DNA from: Planctomycetaceae bacterium
Lineage (GTDB): Bacteria; Planctomycetota; Planctomycetia; Pirellulales; Thermoguttaceae
Reading direction: 5' to 3'
NCBI GenBank assembly: GCA_031278315.1
Contig: JAITKS010000347.1
Span: forward strand, 1-37,600
DNA: 37,600 nucleotides
In this document: positions 29,190-29,708 of the stretch, in pieces
Layout of the letters: every line of letters starts with the position of its first letter
How positions within the stretch are numbered: the stretch's first letter is position 1
Position numbers and translations under genes: made by a program
The notes under the pieces: model-generated
Databases searched by the model: none
Told to the model about the DNA's origin: nothing
Seen by the model: the letters and a program-made list of their open reading frames with translations, nothing else

Positions 29190-29216
29190 ATTGTTAAATT
29201 TTCCCTTTAATTGAAA

Positions 29217-29708
29217 ATGGCATATTCAATTCGATTCGATAGCGACACATTAAGTTTTCCGGCGTCGCATTTTATTACTTTTGGCAATCCTGAAAAAATA
29301 GAAGCATTACACGGACATAATTTTCGCGTGCGTGCGGAAATCATGGGACCTCTTGGTAAACTTGGTTACGTCATTGATTTTTTGCCGGCTTACGACGCTC
29401 TTAAAAAAATTTGTGATACTTTATCACATAAAATTCTTTTACCTGCTAATCATCCGTATATAAAAATCCGTGATTCAAAAAATGGTACTATTAACGTAAC
29501 CGTGCCGCCTCTGCGATGGTCGTTTCCTTCAAACGACACTTTAGTTCTGCCTTTAATAAACAGCACAACAGAATTACTCGCAGAATATATAGCAAAAAAA
29601 TTTCACAAAACTCTCGAAGAATACAACGCATTCGAATATGAAACTTCAAAATATAAATTAAAAATAGAAATCGAAGAAGCTGCCGGAATGTGGGCTGTGT
29701 ACGAATAA
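29217..29708 (+). CDS. 6-pyruvoyl-tetrahydropterin synthase family, Cys-less PTPS-III-type
   Basis: The family acts on 7,8-dihydroneopterin triphosphate. Zinc ligands H18 (FPASHF), H32 and H34 (LHGHNF) are present, as are YVIDF and LSHKILLP. The catalytic Cys of QueD/PTPS, four residues before the first His of HGH, is replaced by I28, followed by E29 (IEALHGH). That Cys-minus, Glu-plus pattern matches PTPS-III, which can replace dihydroneopterin aldolase in folate synthesis. So a folate role is more likely than queuosine, by inference only. Start: ATG at 29217, 163 residues. An insertion relative to QueD lies at residues 80-110. No folate or queuosine genes adjoin. Confidence 0.85.
   Translation: MAYSIRFDSDTLSFPASHFITFGNPEKIEALHGHNFRVRAEIMGPLGKLGYVIDFLPAYDALKKICDTLSHKILLPANHPYIKIRDSKNGTINVTVPPLRWSFPSNDTLVLPLINSTTELLAEYIAKKFHKTLEEYNAFEYETSKYKLKIEIEEAAGMWAVYE

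Follow-up and report, generated by a model that had tools for sequence, protein, structure and literature searches.

A PTPS homologue of a Planctomycetaceae bacterium with a PTPS-III motif and a probable role in folate synthesis

The question raised by this locus is whether a gene of the PTPS family, found at positions 29217–29708 of the window, serves queuosine or folate synthesis. The window is the whole stretch of DNA that was analysed, 37,600 nucleotides from a draft genome of a Planctomycetaceae bacterium. An earlier note on this DNA had described a PTPS homologue with IEALHGH in place of CxxxHGH, and proposed that it is a folate gene despite automatic annotation as QueD. PTPS-III and Planctomycetes without FolB have both been published, and the FolB bypass is also used by malaria parasites. 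Given the published motifs and the published absence of folB, the idea in the note is an application of known biology. Two things are added here. One is a genus-wide difference, namely CExxHGH in the rest of the order versus [V/I]ExxHGH in all 18 sequenced copies of the genus of the window, which have lost the triad Asp as well. The other is a correlation, outside the family of the window, between the methanopterin enzyme Mch and a CitG-like gene that can lie beside the hybrid PTPS.

The motifs of the classes are set out in PMC5041015, which assigns ExxHGH to PTPS-III, CxxxHGH to PTPS-I, and CExxHGH to hybrids able to serve both pathways. Planctomycetes are among the groups without folB in which PTPS-III stands in, according to a finding cited in PMC4674097. 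Mutational work on Plasmodium PTPS (PMC2229834) showed that the formation of 6-hydroxymethyldihydropterin requires a Glu, which is Glu38 in P. falciparum.

Active site and class of the window protein

The gene lies on the forward strand, as do all the residues located below, and extends from an ATG at 29217 to the end of the stop codon at 29708. It encodes 163 amino acids. A TTG at 29211 is a possible earlier start that would add two residues; the genus relatives align from the ATG at 29217. The protein matches the Pfam PTPS family (PF01242) with 61.6 bits against a cut-off of 22.4, and it was assigned to PTPS-III as a predicted 6-hydroxymethyl-7,8-dihydropterin-forming enzyme.

The gene is in the place stated in the earlier note, and the motif IEALHGH, which reads as given there, is encoded at 29298–29318. 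Ile28 (codon ATA, 29298–29300) occupies the position of the catalytic Cys. It is followed by Glu29 (codon GAA, 29301–29303), the predicted catalytic base, which stands three residues ahead of HGH and aligns with Glu38, the catalytic Glu of the P. falciparum enzyme. Residues 32–34 (HGH, 29310–29318) supply two zinc ligands, H32 and H34, as assigned from sequence and row conservation, and His18 (29268–29270) is the first zinc ligand. The three zinc His and Glu29 are identical in 132/132 aligned family rows. Glu119 (29571–29573) is conserved in all rows and Glu154 (29676–29678), probably the pterin-anchoring Glu, in 130/132. One change was absent from the earlier note. At the conserved Asp-His pair, presumably two members of the PTPS intersubunit triad, the window protein has Ser70-His71 (29424–29429), so that the Asp is lost (Ser70 codon, 29424–29426) and the His is kept.

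These residues were compared with those of each PTPS class. The window protein has the ExxHGH Glu (Glu29-Ala-Leu-HGH), the PTPS fold and the three zinc-binding His of PTPS-III; the Asp-His pair seen in Plasmodium, which is usual in the class and not stated as defining it, is lacking. The catalytic Cys of CxxxHGH in PTPS-I and QueD is replaced by Ile28. The hybrid motif CExxHGH is likewise lacking, and the Cys is absent throughout the genus. PTPS-II (biopterin) was rejected since the motif spacing is not CxxxxxHGH. A sequencing slip was also rejected, because 18/18 distinct genus copies with the motif region read [V/I]EALHGH.

The remark of the earlier note on automatic annotation as QueD holds only in part, since the window protein does match the NCBIfam QueD model TIGR03367, but with a score of 48.8 bits against a cut-off of 89.25. 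The 6PTHBS model gave 47.7 bits, below its cut-off of 125.5. Because both scores fall below cut-off, the QueD name would be an over-annotation.

Solved structures were compared as well. Ranked by sequence, chain 1Y13 of P. falciparum (E 3e-19) and the chains of P. vivax 2A0S and its mutants came first, followed by QueD chains at about 2e-4. Plasmodium RETLHGH aligns onto IEALHGH of the window, and the catalytic Glu therefore coincides. For an AlphaFold2 model (mean pLDDT 94.7), 47 relatives were supplied along with the window protein. The top four Foldseek matches of this predicted model were the Plasmodium PTPS structures 3m0n, 1y13, 3lze and 2a0s (E 5e-17 to 1.3e-16, TM 0.83–0.88), one of which bears the title 'E37A catalytic residue mutant'. 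QueD structures matched the predicted model at about 1e-6 with a TM of about 0.57. The DHNA structure 8evk was a weak match (rank 25, E 0.035) that fits the shared tunnelling fold only.

The Plasmodium PTPS-III enzymes (1Y13, 2A0S, 3LZE and 3M0N) share with the window protein a Glu three residues before HGH, the lack of the Cys, and a long form with extra strands, and they are its best matches by sequence and fold at about 26–28% identity. They differ in keeping Asp before the catalytic His (LDHH), where the window protein has Ser (LSHK). The PTPS-I/III hybrids of other Planctomycetota have 36–46% identity to the window protein; they share the family, the long form and a vertical relationship, but keep the Cys and Asp that are both lost in the genus of the window. 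QueD/PTPS-I proteins (such as E. coli QueD and a paralogue on contig C322 of the window genome) share the Pfam PTPS fold and the zinc ligands; unlike the window protein they have no Glu, keep Cys and Asp-His, are shorter, and form a separate clade. FolB, dihydroneopterin aldolase, is alike in pathway role, yielding the same product for FolK, but belongs to another family, acts on another substrate, and is absent here.

Folate and queuosine genes in the genome and its relatives

The window genome is a draft of 4.0 Mb in 473 contigs and is 86% complete. The set of 60 genomes analysed comprised this one, 20 others from its genus, a further 16 from its family and 23 from its order. Profile searches placed FolB above cut-off in 0/60 genomes, the window genome included, and in 0/29 high-quality genomes; the same search was positive in 10/14 control genomes. 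A single weak match (27.8 bits, below cut-off) lies in a 397-amino acid frame of genome G059. Because the window genome is 86% complete, the absence of its own folB leans on its relatives. FolE was found in 49/60 genomes, FolK in 51/60 and DHPS in 58/60. All three are present in the window genome, FolE and FolK above NCBIfam equivalog cut-offs, so that a genome without folB but with folE and folK, as expected for a PTPS-III, was found. A copy of the long PTPS was detected in 53/60 genomes, among them 29/29 of high quality. No long PTPS was found in the genus genomes G003 (84% complete) and G006 (74%), both incomplete.

Queuosine genes are also present. The C322 paralogue is a separate short PTPS with the Cys-type motif KCSHLHGH that passes the TIGR03367 QueD cut-off with 91.3 bits, and the window genome has QueC and Tgt above equivalog cut-offs as well as QueF. 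With a dedicated QueD accompanied by QueC, QueF and Tgt, queuosine synthesis does not require the window gene. Elsewhere in the family and order a divergent second QueC-like gene stands beside the short QueD (for example G027:C3:36207–36809 and G034:C304:12453–13052); none was among the matches listed for the genus of the window.

No folate gene forms an operon with the PTPS gene within the window, and its neighbours there (riboflavin synthase, CheX, UPF0102, FxsA and hemerythrin) have no conserved linkage to PTPS within the genus, so operon evidence is silent. A search of phage records gave no match to the window PTPS.

Loss of Cys and Asp in the genus

Motifs were tallied in 124 sequences after removal of duplicates, comprising 18 from the genus and 106 from elsewhere in the order, from further Planctomycetota and from a handful of other phyla. 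The motif outside the genus is CE[R/P..]LHGH with LDH, and inside it [V/I]EALHGH with LSH, once LMH. The 18 genus copies divide into 16 VE..HGH/SH, one IE..HGH/SH and one VE..HGH/MH. Among the 106 others there are 100 CE..HGH/DH, two RE..HGH/DH, and one each of CE..HEH/DH, CE..HGH/DQ, CE..HGH/EH and VE..HSH/DG; the triad position is Asp in 104/106 (in DH, DQ or DG contexts) and Glu once. Cys and Asp are both lost in 18/18 genus copies, and this double loss occurs in 0/106 others. The VE..HSH/DG copy (VEKVHSH with LDG) belongs to the sister genus g9 (L146, G028:C89). Since it shares the Cys loss, the Cys was probably lost before the Asp. L146 is also without a middle segment and may be decaying.

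In a tree of 72 rows, a branch (97/98) divides the long family, together with Plasmodium, from the short QueD sequences. The grouping of Plasmodium with the window protein means the same side of that branch, with no finer placement. The genus copies were together (95/85) and joined g9 (100/97) within their own family, as expected of vertical descent. The branch to genus plus sister is long (0.56). Among the genus copies dN/dS is 0.04–0.09, a rough value because synonymous sites are near saturation, although purifying selection is still clear. The tree test proposed in the earlier note therefore placed the window protein with PTPS-III and hybrid sequences and not with QueD. Neither of the two results that the note had named as refuting its claim, a normal folB and a grouping with QueD, was obtained. 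Together with the fold, the lack of folB, the separate Cys-type QueD with its partner genes and the presence of FolE, FolK and DHPS, this supports the claim of a folate gene rather than a queuosine gene.

The Asp loss is unusual. Plasmodium and the bacterial RE-type copies keep Asp, so the PTPS-III reaction is compatible with an Asp there, and with Ser at this position the activity of the Plasmodium enzymes cannot simply be carried over to the window protein. Loss of Asp may lower or merely narrow activity in the genus. The genus offers a natural experiment, in which CE/DH relatives can be compared with VE/SH copies for the residues behind queuosine-type versus folate-type chemistry.

Predicted reaction, alternatives and the methanopterin link

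We consider the window gene to be a PTPS-III that makes the folate precursor in place of the absent FolB, with queuosine served by the separate QueD (probability about 87%). What the analysis itself shows is the sequence with its motif, the clade and the fold, which pathway genes are present, and purifying selection. The substrate would be 7,8-dihydroneopterin triphosphate, made by FolE. Glu29 would act as the base that starts side-chain cleavage, with H18, H32 and H34 coordinating a zinc ion, and the product, 6-hydroxymethyl-7,8-dihydropterin, would pass to FolK so that the FolB step of folate synthesis is bypassed. The protein would thus be active without the triad Asp; His71 may still be a proton carrier, and Ser70 would be unable to play the charge role of Asp. 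With both Cys and triad Asp lost, the QueD-type side reaction should be removed. This would correct a likely QueD misannotation and complete the folate pathway for a group of uncultured planctomycetes.

It is highly unlikely that the window protein, in spite of the missing Cys, is still a QueD-type enzyme or a hybrid with a part in queuosine synthesis as well. Its match to the QueD model would agree with this, as would the Cys kept beside Glu in the rest of the order, but that match is below cut-off, the triad Cys and Asp are gone from every genus copy, the same genome has a dedicated CxxxHGH QueD, and the tree separates the two families. Improbable, to a lesser degree, is a pseudo-enzyme that has lost catalysis and taken on another role, such as a structural or regulatory one. 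In its favour are the loss of two triad residues out of three, the long branch to genus plus sister, and the further damage in the sister copy L146 (HSH, LDG). Set against this, every genus copy retains the zinc ligands, Glu29 and His71, purifying selection is strong, and genomes with FolE, FolK and DHPS offer no candidate for the FolB step other than this PTPS.

The use of the product was also considered. In the rest of the order a CitG-like gene (PF01874, 236 bits) lies upstream of the hybrid PTPS, as at L122:10104–10994 on the reverse strand. By coordinates it directly adjoins PTPS in 14/22 genomes, all 14 outside the family of the window. The CitG-like gene and Mch occur in exactly the same 22 of the 60 genomes (22/22). 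Outside the family, the hybrid PTPS would therefore also feed methanopterin, and the CitG-like gene beside it is a candidate for bacterial methanopterin synthesis. A window product that feeds mainly tetrahydromethanopterin rather than folate would fit this linkage of CE-type PTPS, but has next to no probability: Mch and the CitG-like gene were found in 0/37 genomes of the family, the window genome included, yet PTPS is retained, which largely excludes such a use for the genus and points to folate. Folate would then be the remaining use of PTPS in the family.

For the folate enzyme, the ancestral hybrid CExxHGH would have been reduced to [V/I]ExxHGH in the genus, with the triad Asp lost too. 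We lean slightly toward a working PTPS-III throughout the genus that lacks the triad Cys and Asp and cleaves by Glu, His and zinc alone, the hybrid having become a single-purpose folate enzyme after methanopterin metabolism was lost.

Several other PTPS copies were observed. L242 and L250, from bins labelled Proteobacteria or Deltaproteobacteria, are long RE..HGH forms that lack Cys and keep DH, like Plasmodium, and are further bacterial PTPS-III candidates. A third PTPS in a genus relative (L123, G018:C129:12014–12430) has a rubrerythrin-type rubredoxin ribbon fused to the PTPS domain; its motif, GEAQYLHGH, has neither Cys nor Glu in place, and its tree branch is very long. More paralogues occur in the order (L155–L157, L158 at G057:C46, and L160), some beside FolE (G034, G059). 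L158 has the motif CEFFHGH and falls in the short clade.
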